Assembly: GCA_015068765.1 (NCBI GenBank)
Contig: SVJY01000007.1
Coordinates: 1 to 58,836 of the forward strand
Origin: Oscillospiraceae bacterium
Lineage (GTDB): Bacteria > Bacillota > Clostridia > UMGS1883 > UMGS1540
Length of the DNA stretch: 58,836 bases
Direction of reading: 5' to 3'
Part shown: in pieces, positions 2,682 to 58,267 of the stretch
How positions within the stretch are numbered: position 1 is the stretch's first letter
Layout of the letters: the number at the start of each line of letters is the position of its first letter
Notes under the pieces: generated by a model
What the model saw: only the letters and a program-made list of their open reading frames with translations
Database searches by the model: none
Told to the model about the DNA's origin: nothing
Translations under genes and position numbers: made by a program

Positions 2682-4430
2682 ATGGATGTTTTCGATGTAC
2701 TCACGCTCATAGGGGGATTATGCCTGTTTCTTTTCGGCATGAACCTTATGGGAGGTGCTTTGGAGAGAAGTGCCGGCGGAAAGCTGGAAACAATGATCGG
2801 TAAGCTGACATCGGGTAAGCTTGCGGGCTTAATGACCGGTCTTGGTGTTACGGCGGTCATACAGAGCTCATCGGCTACAACGGTTATGGTGGTTGGCTTT
2901 GTAAACTCGCGGTTAATGAGCTTAAAACAAGCAATTCATGTTATTATGGGGGCGAACGTCGGCACAACCGTTACGGCGTGGATATTAAGTTTAAGTGGTA
3001 TTTCCGGTACTAATATTTTCTTAAAATTACTTAAGCCCTCTTCTTTTACCCCGGTGCTTGCACTTATCGGCATCATACTCTTTATGTTCATAAAGAACAA
3101 CAAGAAAAAGGATATTGGCATGGTGCTTCTCGGCTTTGCCACGCTGATGTTTGGTATGGAAACAATGACCGGGGCTGTTTCGGGATTACGAAACATTCCG
3201 GCGTTCCAAGAATTATTCCTTATGTTCAAAAACCCGATTTTAGGTGTTCTTGCAGGTGCAATTTTTACCGCCGTTATTCAGTCAAGTTCCGCTTCTGTCG
3301 GCATTTTGCAGGCACTTGCGGCGACCGGTGCCGTTTCCTACGGTGCGGCCATTCCGATTATTATGGGACAGAATATCGGAACTTGCGTTACGGCGATGAT
3401 TTCTTCGGTGGGCACAACAAAGAATGCAAAGCGAGCAGCATTTGTGCATTTATTCTTTAATGTAATCGGAACGGCGATATGCCTCGGAGCGTTTTCAATA
3501 GGAAATGCCATATTTACGCCGGCGTTGTTAAATGAATCCGCTTCGTTTGCGGGCATCGCAACAGCACATTCTATTTTCAATATTGTCTGTACCGTTCTTC
3601 TTTTGCCTTTATCGGGACTATTGGAAAAGCTTGCCTATAAGCTGGTGCCGGATGCAAAGCTTCCTGAGAAGATTTCAGAGCTTGACGACAGACTTCTCGG
3701 CACTCCCGCTATCGCATTGGAATGTGCACATAACCTCACTTTTGATATGGCTAAGGTAGCAACCGATGCACTGAAAAACAGTCTCGAGTGTCTTACAAGT
3801 TATGATAAGCTAAAGGCACAGGCTATTCGTGATGCGGAGGATAAAACTGACCACTTTGAGGACATTATCGGCACGTACCTTGTTAAAATCAGTTCAAAAC
3901 AGCTGGGAGAAAGGGAGGGCGCAACGGCAACCATGTTGCTGAAATCAATCGGAGATTTCGAGCGTATTTCGGATCATGCTGTAAATATTCTTGAATCTGC
4001 CGAAGAAATGCGAGAGAAAGGCATCGTATTCTCCGACGGTGCAAAGGCAGAGATGGATTCGTTCTCGGCAGCAACGAATGAAATTGTCACACTGTCTTAT
4101 CTTGCATTTATAGAAGAAAATGCAGAACAAGCGAATCTCGTAGAACCGCTGGAACAGGTCATAGACAGGATGAAGGAAATTCTTCGCACAAGACACATTG
4201 ACCGCTTGCGCGAGGGTGATTGCGGCATTGAGGCCGGCTTTGTTTGGAGCGATCTCATCACCAACATGGAAAGAGTTTCCGACCATTGCTCCAACATTGC
4301 AGGCTGTATTATGGATGCGAAAGAGAAAAATATGAATCTGCATGAATCCCTTAAAATGCTGAGAAGCGACAGTGCGTTTTACAGAGAAAAATACACGGAA
4401 TATACAAAAAAATACCTTTCGTTTGTGTAA
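2682..4430 (+). CDS. Na+/phosphate symporter (NptA/PNaS family) with PhoU-like C-terminal domain
   Basis: Membrane phosphate transporter with two inverted PNaS repeats; each carries the QSSSA signature of the family (AVIQSSSATTVM near residue 60 and AVIQSSSASVGI near residue 200). After about residue 340 the protein becomes a soluble helical PhoU-like domain containing the repeated ERISDHAVNI and ERVSDHCSNI motifs. PhoU-type tails are linked with regulation of phosphate entry. The ATG follows AAAGGAGG at good spacing. The two-component system starts about 110 bases downstream with its own promoter; the pairing suggests phosphate homeostasis. Confidence 0.93.
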   Translation: MDVFDVLTLIGGLCLFLFGMNLMGGALERSAGGKLETMIGKLTSGKLAGLMTGLGVTAVIQSSSATTVMVVGFVNSRLMSLKQAIHVIMGANVGTTVTAWILSLSGISGTNIFLKLLKPSSFTPVLALIGIILFMFIKNNKKKDIGMVLLGFATLMFGMETMTGAVSGLRNIPAFQELFLMFKNPILGVLAGAIFTAVIQSSSASVGILQALAATGAVSYGAAIPIIMGQNIGTCVTAMISSVGTTKNAKRAAFVHLFFNVIGTAICLGAFSIGNAIFTPALLNESASFAGIATAHSIFNIVCTVLLLPLSGLLEKLAYKLVPDAKLPEKISELDDRLLGTPAIALECAHNLTFDMAKVATDALKNSLECLTSYDKLKAQAIRDAEDKTDHFEDIIGTYLVKISSKQLGEREGATATMLLKSIGDFERISDHAVNILESAEEMREKGIVFSDGAKAEMDSFSAATNEIVTLSYLAFIEENAEQANLVEPLEQVIDRMKEILRTRHIDRLREGDCGIEAGFVWSDLITNMERVSDHCSNIAGCIMDAKEKNMNLHESLKMLRSDSAFYREKYTEYTKKYLSFV

Positions 4431-4476
4431 TTGGATTCCCCGTGCGAAAAAAAGAAAAGCCCGGAGCTTAAATTAC

Positions 4477-4505
4477 TTGCAGTCGAGCGTGAAAACAGGT
4501 ATAAT
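4477..4505 (+). promoter_or_regulatory. Sigma-A promoter for the two-component operon
   Basis: TTGCAG (4477-4482), 17-base spacer, perfect TATAAT (4500-4505). It lies upstream of the chosen response-regulator start at 4545 and argues against an upstream TTG start at 4431. Confidence 0.75.
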
Positions 4506-4544
4506 ATAAATAGAATGACGGGCGTTTACAAAGGAGAAGTGGCT

Positions 4545-5219
4545 ATGATTTGGTGTGTTGATGATGATAGTACCATCCGTGAGATTGAAGTATATGCTTT
4601 AGAACAAATGGGATTGCAGGCACGTGGCTTTGCGGACGGTGTTACAATGCTTGAAGCACTCAAAAAAGAGAAGCCTGCACTGATTGTTCTTGATGTTATG
4701 ATGCCGGAGATGGACGGCATAGAAGTGCTTAAAAAGCTTCGGGCAGAACCGATTTATAAGGATATTCCCGTGATAATGGCAACCGCAAAAGGCACGGAGA
4801 TGGATAAAATCGGCGGGCTCAACTCCGGGGCAGACGACTATCTGGTAAAGCCGTTTGGGGTTATGGAAATGGTTGCGCGTGTTAAAGCAGTTCTTCGCCG
4901 CACAACAAAGGATGTTTCTTCTTTTGATTTAACAGTAGGTCTGGTTGTCTTGAAAGAAAAGGAGCATATCGTAATCGCAGACGGGGAAAAGGTGGAGCTC
5001 ACCCATAAGGAGTTTGATATGCTCAGACTATTTATGCAGAATCCGAATATTGTGTTTTCGCGGGATAAGCTCATGAACGAAATTTGGGGTACAGATTACA
5101 TGGGCGAAAGCCGCACGGTAGATATGCATATTAAAACCCTTCGACAAAAGCTTGGGAATGCCGGCGGTCAGATTAAAACTGTGATTGGCGTTGGCTACAG
5201 ATTGGAGAGTGGCATATGA
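4545..5219 (+). CDS. OmpR/PhoB-family response regulator
   Basis: DNA-binding response regulator of 224 residues. The receiver domain shows the acidic trio at residues 6-8, the phospho-acceptor D50 (VLDVMMPEMDG) and the conserved lysine in LVKPFG. The C-terminal winged helix runs from about 125 to the end (LTHKEFDMLRLF, SRTVDMHIKTLRQKLG, GVGYRLE). The ATG at 4545 is chosen because AAAGGAGA precedes it and a promoter lies just upstream. Its stop overlaps the kinase ATG as ATGA, so the pair is translationally coupled. Position behind a Na+/phosphate symporter suggests a PhoB/PhoP-like role, which is inference. Confidence 0.93.
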   Translation: MIWCVDDDSTIREIEVYALEQMGLQARGFADGVTMLEALKKEKPALIVLDVMMPEMDGIEVLKKLRAEPIYKDIPVIMATAKGTEMDKIGGLNSGADDYLVKPFGVMEMVARVKAVLRRTTKDVSSFDLTVGLVVLKEKEHIVIADGEKVELTHKEFDMLRLFMQNPNIVFSRDKLMNEIWGTDYMGESRTVDMHIKTLRQKLGNAGGQIKTVIGVGYRLESGI

Positions 5220-6868
5220 CAAAAAAGATATTTCGCTCGATCATTACGGTGGCCCTTACTGTCCTTCTTGCAAGCATCGCCATTGCAACGAGCTTTTTAT
5301 ATGAATATTTTAACACCGCTCAGGTCAATCGGCTACAATCAGCACTTTCCCTTGTTGCCGACACGGTTAATGAGGTAGATACTGCATATTTTGAAAATTT
5401 TGATTCTACCGCTTTCCGCTTTACGATGGTAGATGCGGACGGCACCGTGCTTTACGACAGCGAATCGGATGCGACACAAATGGAAAACCATGCAGACCGT
5501 GAGGAAATTGCCGAAGCCTTCCGGGAAGGGAAGGGGAGTAGTGCGAGAAATTCCGCAACGCTTACAGAAAAGACCTTTTACGAGGCAGTCTTACTTGAAA
5601 ATGGGGATGTGCTTCGTATCTCTGTCAGTCAATTAACGGTCGGCTCCTTGATAATTGGGATGCTTCCGGCAATCTGTGCTATTATTTTAATTGCCGCAAG
5701 TGTTGCACTGATTCTTTCCCACAAAATGGCAAAGAAAGTCACAGAGCCGCTGATGCATCTTGATTTTGAATATCCCTCCGAAAACAATGCTTACGAGGAA
5801 CTTGTGCCCATACTTAACAAAATTCATACGCAGCATGAGCAGATTCGGTCACAAATGGAAACGCTTCGCCGTAAATCAGACGAGCTGGAACAGATTATTT
5901 CCTCTATGAATGAGGGACTCGTTTTGCTCGATGAGCACGGTATGGTACTTAGCATGAATACGGCGGCGAAAAAGATATTTTCCGTACGAAAAGAGGATAA
6001 GAATATTGACTTTCTTCTGGTTGACAGAACAAGCAAGATGAGTAAAGCTGTTTGGAATGCACTTGCGGGCAATCACAGTGCATATGACGAGGAGAGAGGC
6101 GGCAACCGGTACCAATTTAATATTAACCCTATTACATCTGACGGAAAAACACTTGGCGTGGTTATTCTTGCCTTTGACATTACGGAAAAAGCCTTTTCCG
6201 AGCGTAACCGACAGGAATTTACCGCTAACGTTACCCATGAATTAAAAACGCCGCTACAATCCATTATCGGTTCTGCGGAGCTTTTGGAAAACGGTTTGAT
6301 AAAACCGGAAGATGTAGGCAGATTTGTGGGGAATATCCGCAAGGAAGCCACGCGTCTGGTCAGCCTTATTAACGACATCATCCGCCTGTCTCAGTTGGAT
6401 GAAAACCATGAGGCCGAAACCGAAGCAGTGGAGCTTACAGAGGTCGCAGAAGAGGTTTTGGATGTACTTGCTGTATCGGCGGCGAAAAAAAATATTACGC
6501 TAAACATTCAAGGGGAGAATTGCACGGTATACGGCGTTCGTCGCTATATTTACGAAATTATCTATAATCTTTGCGACAATGCGATCCGTTACAATGTGGA
6601 CGGCGGTGCGGTAACGGTTTCCGTTCAAAAGGAAGAAGACCGTACAGTCATATCTGTCAGTGATACCGGCATCGGAATTGCACCTGCGCATCAATCAAGA
6701 ATTTTTGAACGCTTTTACCGTGTAGATAAAAGTCACTCTAAAGAAACGGGAGGAACAGGTCTGGGTCTTGCGATCGTAAAACACGCAGCCGCGTACCACG
6801 ATGCTGAAATTTCGCTTGAAAGCACGAAAGGAAAAGGGACAAATATTAAAATTTCCTTCAAAGGATAA
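5216..6868 (+). CDS. PhoR-like sensor histidine kinase
   Basis: Membrane sensor kinase of 550 residues, partner of the preceding response regulator. It has a transmembrane helix at about 7-29, an extracellular loop to about 140, a second helix at about 143-167, a PAS-like domain at about 225-325, a HisKA domain with phospho-acceptor H341 (NVTHELKTPLQ), and a HATPase domain with the N box NLCDNAIRYN, DTGIGIAP and GGTGLGLAIVKH. The membrane-PAS-kinase order is that of PhoR. The signal is not readable from sequence. Confidence 0.94.
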   Translation: MTKKIFRSIITVALTVLLASIAIATSFLYEYFNTAQVNRLQSALSLVADTVNEVDTAYFENFDSTAFRFTMVDADGTVLYDSESDATQMENHADREEIAEAFREGKGSSARNSATLTEKTFYEAVLLENGDVLRISVSQLTVGSLIIGMLPAICAIILIAASVALILSHKMAKKVTEPLMHLDFEYPSENNAYEELVPILNKIHTQHEQIRSQMETLRRKSDELEQIISSMNEGLVLLDEHGMVLSMNTAAKKIFSVRKEDKNIDFLLVDRTSKMSKAVWNALAGNHSAYDEERGGNRYQFNINPITSDGKTLGVVILAFDITEKAFSERNRQEFTANVTHELKTPLQSIIGSAELLENGLIKPEDVGRFVGNIRKEATRLVSLINDIIRLSQLDENHEAETEAVELTEVAEEVLDVLAVSAAKKNITLNIQGENCTVYGVRRYIYEIIYNLCDNAIRYNVDGGAVTVSVQKEEDRTVISVSDTGIGIAPAHQSRIFERFYRVDKSHSKETGGTGLGLAIVKHAAAYHDAEISLESTKGKGTNIKISFKG

Positions 6869-54451: not shown

Positions 54452-54480
54452 TTGACAATATTGCAAAAATAATTTATAAT
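54452..54480 (+). promoter_or_regulatory. Sigma-A promoter of the TetR-type gene
   Basis: Perfect TTGACA (54452-54457), 17-base spacer, perfect TATAAT (54475-54480). Confidence 0.85.
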
Positions 54481-54519: not shown

Positions 54520-55221
54520 ATGCTTAACAGCATTATCGAAAGACATAGTATGATTACCCCCTTGTCTGATACGGAAATTAAGGTTATAAGAAGTGCGACA
54601 AAGCTGTTTTTGACGCAAGGCTTTTCAAAAACAACGCACAGGCAGATTGCAGAGGAATCGGGCATAGGACTTGGAACCATAACATACCATTATAAGGTTA
54701 AGGAAGATTTGCTCCGTGTTCTTGTTGAGGAGCTTATGGATTTCCACTTGGACGTTATTGATGATTCACAGGCAAAATCAAATGACAGTCTTTTCTCTTA
54801 TGCAATAGAAATTGCCGTACAGCTTGCCTTATGCGAAACCGATGATAAAGCGTATGACTTGTACTATTCGGCATACAGACATCCTGCTACCTTTGATTAT
54901 ATAAAGGATTGGGCTGCAAAGAAAAACTATCACCTGCTGAAAAGCAAGCTGCCCGATTGGACGGAGGACGATTTCAGGAGAGTGGAAAATGTCACAAGCG
55001 GGATTGAGCTTGCAGCATTTACGGCTCCCAAAAACAGATACTTTTCGCTTAATGACAAAATCAGCTTGTTTTTAGATTCAATGATGAAAATATATGGTAT
55101 TCCGGAGAGCGACCGTAAACAAACCATTGATAAGGTTATTGCCCTAGACTGTGAGAAAATTGCAAAAGAAATGTTTGGAAAGTTTGTAAGTCGTCTTGAT
55201 GGTGAGTTGCAAAACCAATGA
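54520..55221 (+). CDS. TetR-family regulator
   Basis: Protein of 233 residues with an N-terminal HTH (ATKLFLTQGFSKTTHRQIAEE, then GIGLGTITYHYKVKEDLL) and an unassigned helical ligand domain. Starts after GAGGAGATGATTATAA behind a strong promoter. Base composition is more AT-rich than most of the window. It precedes the SLH nucleotidase by 76 bases and probably controls it, by inference. Confidence 0.9.
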   Translation: MLNSIIERHSMITPLSDTEIKVIRSATKLFLTQGFSKTTHRQIAEESGIGLGTITYHYKVKEDLLRVLVEELMDFHLDVIDDSQAKSNDSLFSYAIEIAVQLALCETDDKAYDLYYSAYRHPATFDYIKDWAAKKNYHLLKSKLPDWTEDDFRRVENVTSGIELAAFTAPKNRYFSLNDKISLFLDSMMKIYGIPESDRKQTIDKVIALDCEKIAKEMFGKFVSRLDGELQNQ

Positions 55222-55297: not shown

Positions 55298-58267
55298 ATG
55301 AAATTCAAAACAAGATTTAACAAATTAACAGCGAGGCTATTGGTGGCAGTTATGCTTATAACATTACTTCCGGTAACTGCTCTTGCGGCAGATGAAACAC
55401 CGTACAGCAAAAATGCAACTGTTCCTGGTGCACCGATAATTACAGAGCTTATCGAAGAAGACAAAACTATCGCAGTTTCGTGGAAAGCACCCCGAAATGA
55501 TGGCGGTGCGAAAATCATCGGCTATGAAATAGAGTGCTGGCCTGAAGGCTCAACTGATGGAAACGGCGGTATGACAATAGCGGTAGATGCGGATGTTTTT
55601 TCCTATACCGTTGATAAACTGCCTGATGAGAATATAAACTATGATATTAAAATCTGTGCGATCAACCCTGTCGGCAGAGGCGAATACGGAATTTTTGGAA
55701 ATGCACCCGAAATTACGGGAATATCATTCAAAACGGACAACGTTGCGTACAATGAAGAAACAAATACATATACTGTGTCGCAAACCGTACCTTTTGTTGT
55801 GTATCTCACGGGTGTAAATCTTGAAAATATTGATGAAAGCTTTTTTAATGAGGTACATTTTGGTTTTATTCCGTCAGTTGAAAATTCGGAAAATGCACTC
55901 GGTGCATCCCTTTCTAAATTTGCGGAAATCGGTATTTCGATAGCTGTTGACAGCAACGAAAACAAGATAACCCTTACCTTTGACTATGCTGCGATAACCG
56001 GATTTCTCGGTGACGAGAGTGCTTTTGAGGGTATTGGATACGGTGATATCAATTCTTTCAAGGAAGATGATATAAAGGCGGTAAATATCACTGCCCAAAA
56101 GCCGGATTCGACTTTGAAGAAAGAATTTGAGGATGTTCACCCTATAAACCATTGGGCAACGGAAAATATTGATTATGTTTACACAAACGGCTTAATGAAC
56201 GGAATAGATGATGCACACTTTGCTCCCGATATGCCATTAACAAGGGCAATGCTGGTTACAATCCTTTACAGGCTTGAGGGTGAGCCGAGAGTATCGGGAA
56301 TAACAAGCTATGCGGATTTGGAACCGGGACAATACTACCTTGATGCAGTGTGCTGGGCACAGATAAACGGTATCGCCAACGGCATAACTGAAACCGAATT
56401 TGCACCCAATGACAATATCACCCGTGAACAGATTGCAGCAATAATGTTCAGATATGCAAGGTATAAGGAAACTGCTCCCACAGGTGCATGGGCAATCAGG
56501 CTTGATTATGCTGACCTTGCAGAGATTTCCGACTATGCATTGGAAGGCGTTATGTTCTGCAAGCTGAAAGGCATTATGCAGGGCAAGGGCGAAAATAACT
56601 TTGCACCAAAGGATAATGCAACAAGAGCCGAAGCTGCGGCGATTCTGGAAAGACTTATAAAATCAGATTCTGAAGCCGAAGAACACGAATGTGAAGAAAT
56701 AGCAATTCTTTATACAAATGATGTTCATTGCGGAATTGAAGATAATATCGGTTATGCAGGACTTGCGGCATATATAAAAGAAACAGAAGCTCTTTATGAA
56801 TATGTAACCCTTGCAGACTGCGGCGATGCAGTTCAGGGCGATTTTGTAGGAACTGTATCAAGCGGTGAATATATCGTTGATATTATGAATGAAGTGGGAT
56901 ATGATTTTGCGGTTTTGGGAAATCACGAATTTGATTACGGAATGGAGCAACTTTCAAGTCTTATCGAAAAATCAAATGCACAGTACCTCGGCTGTAATAT
57001 AAGCTATACAGGGAAGAATACAAATCTGCTTGAAGCGGTAAAGCCCTATGAAATAGTGGAATACGGAGATACAAAGGTTGCCTTTATAGGTGTTACAACA
57101 CCTGAAAGCTACACTAAGTCAACTCCTTCATACTTTATGGAGGACGGCGTGTATGTGTATGACCTCGAAAGAGGAAATGACGGAAAAGACCTCTATGCTA
57201 ACGTCCAAAAATATGTTGATGAATGTGAAAATCAGGGTGCAGATTACATAATCATTTTAGCACACCTCGGCGATGCAGAGGAATCCTCTCCCTATACATC
57301 GGTTGAACTGATTGAAGCAACAGACGGCATCGACGTTGTGCTTGACGGACATTCGCACAGTGTAATCGAAAGCCGTATTGTAGATAATATAAACGGCGAG
57401 GATGTTGTTCTTTCTTCCACGGGAACAAAGCTTGAAAATATAGGAAAGCTTGTTATCTGCGATGACGGTACAATTACAACCACACTTATATCGAACTACA
57501 CAGCAAAAGATGCAGCGTGTGATGAGTTTATCGGAAGCATCAAGGCAAAATATGCCGAGGAAATGGATAAGGTTATAGCAGCCTCAGACATTGCTCTCTC
57601 CTGCTCAACCGAAGACGGAATCCGCCTTGTAAGAAATCGGGAAACCGTAATCGGTAATTTCTGTGCAGACGCATACAGAGCCATCGGGAATGCAGATATC
57701 GGCGTTGTAAACGGCGGTGGTATAAGAGCAGACCTTCCGAAAGGCGATATAACCTATGCCGATATACTTGCGATACATCCCTTTGGCAATAGCCTTTGCG
57801 TGGTAAAGGCAACAGGTCAGGAAATTATAGATTTGCTTGAGACGGCTTGTATGCACACAAAGGCTGAATTTAAAGAAAACGGAAATGCAGTCGGCGAAAA
57901 CGGTGGATTTATGCAGGTGTCAGGGCTCAAATTCACAATTGATACATCAATCCCGTCGCCCGTGGTTCTTGATGAAAATGATAACTTTGTTAAGGTTTCG
58001 GGTGAGCGCCGCGTGAAGGATATTACAGTCCTGGGAGATAACGGAGAATACGCTCCGATTGAAACTGATAAAATTTATACACTTGCTTCTCACAACTATC
58101 TGTTAAGAGACGGCGGAGATAACTATACAAAGTTTACCGATAACGAGTTTATCATAAGCGAGGGAATTTCAGATTATCAGGTCATCACGGAATATATTAC
58201 AAACGTTCTCGGCGGAATCTTAAGTGAGAAATATGCCGTGACAGAAGGAAGAATCACAGTAAAATAA
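55298..58267 (+). CDS. Secreted SLH-domain 5'-nucleotidase with FN3 domain
   Basis: Surface protein of 989 residues. Signal peptide 1-31 (basic start, hydrophobic core, TALA before ADE); fibronectin III-like domain at about 41-130; unassigned domain at about 131-275; three SLH repeats at about 278-320, 338-385 and 402-455 (NHWATENIDYVYTNGLMNG, FAPNDNITREQIAAIMFRYA, FAPKDNATRAEAAAILERL); metallophosphatase domain from about 466 (LYTNDVHCG, GNHEFDYG, DGHSHS); and C-terminal nucleotidase domain with NGGGIRADLPKGDITYADIL. SLH repeats bind pyruvylated wall polymers; the enzyme half hydrolyses extracellular nucleotides in relatives. SLH repeats in mid-protein are unusual. Ribosome site AAAAGAAGGCG. 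Confidence 0.9.
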   Translation: MKFKTRFNKLTARLLVAVMLITLLPVTALAADETPYSKNATVPGAPIITELIEEDKTIAVSWKAPRNDGGAKIIGYEIECWPEGSTDGNGGMTIAVDADVFSYTVDKLPDENINYDIKICAINPVGRGEYGIFGNAPEITGISFKTDNVAYNEETNTYTVSQTVPFVVYLTGVNLENIDESFFNEVHFGFIPSVENSENALGASLSKFAEIGISIAVDSNENKITLTFDYAAITGFLGDESAFEGIGYGDINSFKEDDIKAVNITAQKPDSTLKKEFEDVHPINHWATENIDYVYTNGLMNGIDDAHFAPDMPLTRAMLVTILYRLEGEPRVSGITSYADLEPGQYYLDAVCWAQINGIANGITETEFAPNDNITREQIAAIMFRYARYKETAPTGAWAIRLDYADLAEISDYALEGVMFCKLKGIMQGKGENNFAPKDNATRAEAAAILERLIKSDSEAEEHECEEIAILYTNDVHCGIEDNIGYAGLAAYIKETEALYEYVTLADCGDAVQGDFVGTVSSGEYIVDIMNEVGYDFAVLGNHEFDYGMEQLSSLIEKSNAQYLGCNISYTGKNTNLLEAVKPYEIVEYGDTKVAFIGVTTPESYTKSTPSYFMEDGVYVYDLERGNDGKDLYANVQKYVDECENQGADYIIILAHLGDAEESSPYTSVELIEATDGIDVVLDGHSHSVIESRIVDNINGEDVVLSSTGTKLENIGKLVICDDGTITTTLISNYTAKDAACDEFIGSIKAKYAEEMDKVIAASDIALSCSTEDGIRLVRNRETVIGNFCADAYRAIGNADIGVVNGGGIRADLPKGDITYADILAIHPFGNSLCVVKATGQEIIDLLETACMHTKAEFKENGNAVGENGGFMQVSGLKFTIDTSIPSPVVLDENDNFVKVSGERRVKDITVLGDNGEYAPIETDKIYTLASHNYLLRDGGDNYTKFTDNEFIISEGISDYQVITEYITNVLGGILSEKYAVTEGRITVK

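Follow-up and report, generated by a model that had tools for sequence, protein, structure and literature searches.

The open reading frame at 55298-58267 of the window (the whole 58,836-nt stretch of the Oscillospiraceae bacterium contig that was analysed) and the TetR-type gene immediately upstream likely form one small operon, consisting of a repressor and a surface protein under its control. Comparison of the sequences suggests that the locus is probably an autoregulated, exchangeable surface-cargo operon, carrying a 5'-nucleotidase in this genome. The enzyme, the anchor and the regulator are members of known families, and the operon type is the part worth following. Features of the locus and of the loci compared with it are collected in Table 1.

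Table 1. Positions of features in the window and, where a locus or record is named, in other stretches.
Feature	Position	Strand	Remarks
Promoter TTGACA-17-TATAAT	54452..54480	+	12/12 consensus positions; predicted from consensus
Candidate operator-like repeat TTGTACTTGTACTAA	54480..54494	+	directly after the -10 box
TetR-type regulator, 233 aa	54520..55221	+	TetR_N 1.8e-9; all-helical model, mean pLDDT 89.5; Foldseek
Surface protein, 989 aa	55298..58267	+	starts 76 bp past the TetR stop
Putative signal peptide, residues ~1-31	55298..55390	+	read by eye
FN3 domain, residues 55-130	55460..55687	+	Pfam fn3 5.9e-8
Stretch without Pfam match, residues 136-275	55703..56122	+	no confident fold either
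SLH repeat 1, residues 277-317	56126..56248	+	PF00395 34.6 bits
SLH repeat 2, residues 338-380	56309..56437	+	PF00395 33.8 bits
SLH repeat 3, residues 404-447	56507..56638	+	PF00395 43.8 bits
Metallophos domain, residues 470-688	56705..57361	+	PF00149 1.4e-9
5_nucleotid_C domain, residues 775-947	57620..58138	+	PF02872 1e-35
Split second TetR/LRR pair	PV036458.1 62940-64300 (L278 about 3990-5370)	both	as if ~1.2 kb inverted
G292 and G237 cargos	L224 1045-11055; L242 6938-16957		
~1,700-aa mid-SLH proteins, own genome	L164 2861-7966; L165 2873-8011; L114 4458-9506; L166 5095-10329		

The surface gene is an unbroken frame with an ATG start, and its product runs from a signal-peptide-like start through an FN3 domain, a stretch without a family and three SLH repeats to a complete UshA/CD73-type 5'-nucleotidase. 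Pfam matches were counted only above curated cut-offs; the SLH block scored 4.3e-28 over three stretches, and Metallophos and 5_nucleotid_C both exceeded their cut-offs and followed each other in the order that defines a 5'-nucleotidase. By profile match, this is the only 5_nucleotid_C gene in the genome. The motifs DxH, GD, GNHE, GHSH, NGGGIR and DGGD were seen by eye in the enzyme part, and we take these to be the metal/catalytic and substrate motifs of UshA/CD73-type enzymes. Judged from sequence, the C-terminal enzyme should clip phosphate off nucleotides, an activity that is predicted. No NCBIfam equivalog model attained its cut-off, the best being Nt5e_LPXTG (NF040549) with 205 bits against a cut-off of 1050. 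In the AlphaFold2 model, ten-residue blocks from residue 281 onward mostly had confidence values of 80-98, with dips at residues 391-400, 451-470 (the junction of the SLH block and the enzyme), 511-520 and 861-870, while residues 1-270 were modelled without any confidence. The nearest solved structures to the enzyme model, found with Foldseek, were the T. thermophilus 5'-nucleotidase 2z1a and human CD73. The original prediction of a surface nucleotidase with an FN3-bearing N-terminal half and three SLH repeats in mid-chain was thus confirmed. Outside this genome, residues 136-275 had only two weak matches in 391 genomes, one of them within a TetR-paired cargo in genome G160; kinship to that cargo was considered and set aside, because a phmmer comparison of the N-terminal half with all 25 TetR-paired cargo proteins returned nothing at E<=1.

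Three tandem SLH repeats with the expected Gly and Arg positions are present, and by eye the Gly of GIIxG and the Arg of TRAE have counterparts in all three. In SpaA, the equivalent Gly and Arg positions bind pyruvylated wall polymer (PMC6081394). A csaB-like pyruvyl transferase gene, which the original prediction had led us to look for, is represented in this genome by one PF04230 match (7.6e-38), an assignment at the family level only, and the same family was matched in 8 of 14 control genomes. The repeats do not stand at one end of the chain, as is customary for SLH wall proteins, since 276 residues precede them and 536 follow. The domain order is consistent with the original suggestion that both ends may project from the wall anchor.

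To describe how unusual this position is, we kept the best 80 of 590 nucleotidase loci, among which 68 had no SLH repeats (at least one of these frames, L070, ends at a contig edge), 10 had them at the C-terminus and two had them inside the chain. In L063, whose frame is no shorter than 2241 aa, the repeats precede the enzyme; in L073 they lie between two phosphoesterase parts. The architecture is therefore rare among these nucleotidases and not confined to a single protein. In this genome, which has 117 SLH matches, 51 distinct frames were read from the stretches fetched, a subset of the matches in which seven frames touch a stretch end; by crude cut-offs, 21 were C-terminal, 13 N-terminal, 11 middle (including ORF 55298-58267) and 6 other. 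Because 11 of the 51 frames read are of the middle type, mid-chain SLH repeats are not foreign to this genome. The earlier statement that SLH repeats usually sit at one end hence holds for the related nucleotidases and applies only in part to this genome, and a mid-chain SLH block taken alone is a modest architectural variant. As a separate observation, this genome encodes four proteins, each about 1,700 aa long, in which SLH repeats near residues 680-860 are followed by some 750-840 residues; in the three of them that were scanned, Pfam found nothing but SLH.

An artefact of assembly, in which an SLH protein was joined to a separate nucleotidase gene, would also produce such a chain, and the assembly is fragmented (57 contigs). 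We regard this explanation as very improbable. The frame is open across the junction, and L063, from a different assembly, has the same order and aligns over the SLH-enzyme junction (query 276-988, 44% identity, with a short linker), which together make misassembly at the junction unlikely; L073 also carries SLH repeats within a nucleotidase chain, and GC3 is low in both the N-terminal and the enzyme parts (0.356 and 0.363).

The simplest account of the mid-chain block, as read from the sequences, is that it looks like a former C-terminal anchor onto which a nucleotidase was fused, so that an enzyme would have been joined to a protein already ending in an SLH anchor. In 18 of the 21 C-terminal SLH frames of this genome the chain stops 2-7 residues beyond the last repeat, and in ORF 55298-58267 the enzyme begins about a dozen residues beyond it. 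The closest SLH block in the DNA compared, which was enriched in TetR neighbourhoods, ends a 570-aa cargo protein of G340 that likewise follows a TetR of this type (72% over 181 aa); the best match in the genome itself reached about 50%, and nothing above 51% was found among 60 relatives. In a tree of 83 enzyme rows, the enzyme clusters with five stand-alone forms in a supported group, and the three proteins with middle SLH repeats require three separate changes.

The upstream gene encodes a TetR/AcrR-type regulator, as indicated by its TetR_N DNA-binding domain and all-helical fold, and the Foldseek matches of its model are TetR-type repressors. We do not propose a ligand: fold and profile searches gave many TetR-type repressors at similar low scores, and the PDB profile matches listed covered mostly the DNA-binding end. 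The surroundings of all 27 other TetR matches (E<=1e-12) were read; in two of them the contig continues for no more than 183 and 85 bp past the TetR gene, leaving 25 readable loci. Cargo was taken as the longest same-strand frame beginning no more than 450 bp downstream, a choice that slightly favours the pairing reading, and "secreted-looking" denotes a signal-like N-terminus by one simple rule. All 25 readable loci had a secreted-looking frame next on the same strand, beginning within 110 bp of the TetR gene in 24; the exception was G292, where it follows a 114-aa ORF. Cargos were at least 300 aa long in 22 of the 25, and four were cut by a contig end. When this rule was applied to the 189 remaining same-strand neighbours at these loci, 40 were secreted-looking, and 17 of the 189 were both secreted-looking and 300 aa or longer. 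Six of the genomes also supplied ten unrelated TetR genes, which were read by eye: one had a secreted neighbour of 300 aa or more and one a 248-aa lipoprotein, and a secreted frame 522 bp away was left uncounted. In G059, a weak partial TetR relative (37%, outside the E<=1e-12 set) stands beside an ABC-transporter-like neighbour.

The cargo proteins were diverse. SLH repeats end 7 of the 25, and four carry sortase-like tails by eye. Pfam, run on 18 of the 25 (three of the remaining seven are cut by a contig end), identified InlB-type repeats, GLUG, beta-helix, Cthe_2159, VWA and isopeptide domains, two mutually related alpha-amylases, and GH53. The nucleotidase had no match at E<=1 among the 25 other cargo proteins, indicating that it is the cargo of one copy and not the regular partner of the TetR. 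The earlier view of the locus as an accessory module for nucleotide scavenging was therefore half right: the nucleotidase is the cargo here, and none of the 25 other cargos matches it. Further observations concern individual loci. The cargos of G292 (3,336 aa) and G237 (3,339 aa) share 75% identity along their full length, and the TetRs preceding them are 89% and 28% identical to that of 54520-55221, so that one cargo is found with two very different regulators. The 114-aa ORF between TetR and cargo occurs in G292 only (L224 11108-11452), and its product resembles a four-helix-bundle protein. By eye, some cargos without SLH repeats have a similar ending, GDKIM...P.C...I (at the C-termini of L225, L228 and L229, and in L191 9317-10525), which by its sequence is perhaps another surface-attachment domain.

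The -35 and -10 boxes before the TetR gene are kept in the TetR relatives compared, and the predicted promoter would serve the TetR gene and, probably, the surface gene as well. The repeat TTGTACTTGTACTAA has one exact copy in the 1.73 Mb of this genome that was searched, located before the TetR and surface genes, and two more places match with one mismatch. Among five sequences (this locus and four relatives), the 15-base repeat is 96% identical pairwise, against 39% upstream and 34% downstream; these sequences were chosen for the site and aligned on it, and the point is its fixed place after the -10 box amid diverged DNA. At the same place in other close relatives, TAGAACATGTAC was found where the recognition region is near that of the 54520-55221 TetR type (2 sequences), TCGGT..ACCGA where it is LRQGTIAYH (2 sequences), and a TAGTAT..ATACTA-like repeat where it is V(K/R)xGNITYY (3 sequences). 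The type of repeat thus tracks the type of recognition helix, which is the behaviour expected of an operator, and TTGTACTTGTACTAA is the candidate operator of this TetR. A palindrome test on 13 close sequences pooled gave 142 against a shuffle mean of 122.6 (sd 4.8), exceeding 300 of 300 shuffles. Tested singly, the sequences gave P values from 0.05 to 0.80 (0.72 for this locus), and in several of them, this locus included, the best 14-mer was another site; distant relatives pooled gave 142 against 131.5, with a largest shuffle of 148, and were not clearly above chance.

These results bear on an unlikely alternative, that the TetR gene is a chance neighbour controlling something else, and that the nucleotidase gene has its own promoter and serves the ordinary scavenging of phosphate or purines. 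It would fit with the fact that the TetR relatives examined are not paired with nucleotidases, and with a weak promoter-like stretch, spaced by 15 nt, which was seen by eye between the two genes and makes a separate promoter for the surface gene possible. Against it stand a secreted neighbour at the same place in 25 of 25 readable relatives and the 76-bp gap between genes on the same strand; moreover, the sole exact operator-like site in the part of this genome that was searched precedes these two genes, and the promoter with all 12 consensus positions stands before the TetR gene. We favour the reading of the two genes as one operon.

Acquisition of the module had been suggested from its composition. 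The TetR gene is indeed AT-rich (GC 0.401, rank 10 of 243 genes from the low end), the 243 background genes being a non-random draw from the window and from stretches picked around SLH genes. GC and GC3 are low at the locus, yet the codon log-probability is in the mid-range (rank 110 of 243), so codon usage was dropped as proof of acquisition; composition would not decide the matter. Relatedness weighs more than composition, and supports horizontal movement of the TetR as judged from the sequences. Relatives of the TetR (E<=1e-12) are patchily distributed: of the 391 genomes sampled from the class, 22 carry the gene, this genome included. The nearest are in G374 (90%) and G292 (89%), both of another family, followed by G161 (75%), G069 (70%) and G096 (70%), and RpoB identities to this genome are 73.2% for G374, 72.7% for G292, 72.4% for G161 and 73.8% for G069; RpoB was looked for in G096, G002 and G104 and not found. 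A TetR identity of 90% against an RpoB identity of 73% indicates horizontal transfer of the TetR. Among closer relatives, congener G001 (RpoB 93.0%) yielded no match to the TetR, congener G002 has two (53% and 30%), and family member G004 (RpoB 87.9%) has one at 27%; the locus thus differs among close relatives, and the suggestion of acquisition is supported. At E<=1e-60, the nucleotidase is absent from both congeners and from three other family members examined, and among the 28 genomes of the order it passes this cut-off in two, one of them this genome, with weaker relatives (30-36%) elsewhere in the order. These absences are provisional, as most of the genomes are incomplete assemblies.

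The TetR type also has a distant relative in phage DNA. Four records in a phage collection matched the TetR, and one of them was counted as a phage: the Oscillospirales gut phage PV036458 (75,312 bp), which carries a 26% TetR relative and, 3 bp further on, a 1235-aa secreted-looking frame. MT836789, MT839755 and MT839177 ("Bacteriophage sp.") each have a secreted-looking frame behind the TetR, and were rejected as phages, being unannotated and bacterial-looking by eye. Adjoining the first pair in PV036458 is a second pair, of a TetR and an LRR protein, whose parts are divided between the two strands: the + strand has the beginning of the TetR and the LRR_5 protein part, and the - strand has the rest of the TetR and the signal-peptide start of the secreted protein. 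The phage record annotates a DNA invertase. As read from this arrangement, an inversion that interrupts the TetR and its cargo gene alike might turn a phage-borne surface protein on and off; a single orientation was observed, L284 and L285 being identical over the stretch compared. Scans of IMG/VR with the PV036458 TetR gave three loci on two contigs, and those with the 54520-55221 TetR and the TetRs of L224 and L193 gave no relative. A plasmid search gave four partial TetR matches only, with coverage of 29-60%.

Taken more broadly, the TetR type would be a horizontally exchanged surface-cargo switch, with cargo varying among genomes. A fuller version, which we consider evenly poised between right and wrong, is that it forms the unchanging part of a mobile switch for surface display, which moves among Clostridia-type bacteria, with at least one gut phage included, and swaps secreted cargo (adhesin-like, glycosidase, nucleotidase), with an operator matched to the recognition helix and a second phage copy split by a short inversion as an on/off state; ORF 55298-58267 would be an SLH-ended cargo that gained a nucleotidase. 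At the present locus, binding of a TetR dimer to the GTAC..GTAC repeat at the promoter of its gene may block transcription of that gene and of the surface gene, until a small molecule releases it from the DNA. The surface protein would then be exported, its three SLH repeats would hold pyruvylated wall polymer, and its C-terminal enzyme would strip phosphate from extracellular nucleotides, allowing uptake of nucleoside and phosphate, while the FN3-bearing N-terminal half would stay free for another contact.

It is conceivable that this last part is the main one, and that the protein is chiefly an adhesin or receptor acting through the FN3 domain and the N-terminal half, with the enzyme secondary or used for signalling, such as CD73-like production of adenosine near host cells. 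Much of the other cargo looks adhesin-like (InlB-type repeats, GLUG, beta-helix, VWA), an FN3 domain is present, and the enzyme has the CD73 fold. Some of the cargo is clearly enzymatic, however (alpha-amylase, GH53); FN3 is the one binding domain recognised in the N-terminal half, and that half has no relatives among the 25 cargo proteins. We consider a primarily adhesive role improbable, and favour the display of a nucleotidase as the function of this copy.

Several known systems resemble parts of the locus. SLH-carrying 5'-nucleotidases of Oscillospiraceae and relatives (Papillibacter L076, Sinanaerobacter L090) have the same enzyme family and kind of anchor, but their SLH repeats follow the enzyme, whereas the enzyme of ORF 55298-58267 groups with stand-alone forms and not with them. 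L063 (Bacillota MAG SUG1728) and L073 (Oscillospiraceae MAG SIG498) likewise carry SLH repeats inside the nucleotidase chain, with separate origins on the tree; L063 differs in its N-terminal part and length, and in L073 enzyme parts flank the repeats on both sides. The LPXTG-anchored 5'-nucleotidases (Nt5e_LPXTG) are also surface-anchored ecto-5'-nucleotidases, with a sortase signal in place of SLH repeats. Autoregulated TetR/AcrR repressors such as QacR, FadR and RolR have the same DNA-binding domain and fold, and as in those systems an operator at the own promoter is probable here, but the gene beside the 54520-55221 TetR encodes a secreted protein, where those repressors have an efflux pump or catabolic gene. 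In the titles and abstract openings of the open-access literature searched, we found no description of a TetR that goes with surface cargo, whether of the SLH kind or another.

If our reading is true, hard-to-place giant surface proteins of gut-type Firmicutes would be tied to one recognisable regulator and operator, and the signal for expression of such proteins could be sought and their cargo compared. Surface traits such as adhesion, digestion of starch and galactan, and use of nucleotides would then be swapped behind a constant switch, partly perhaps by phages.
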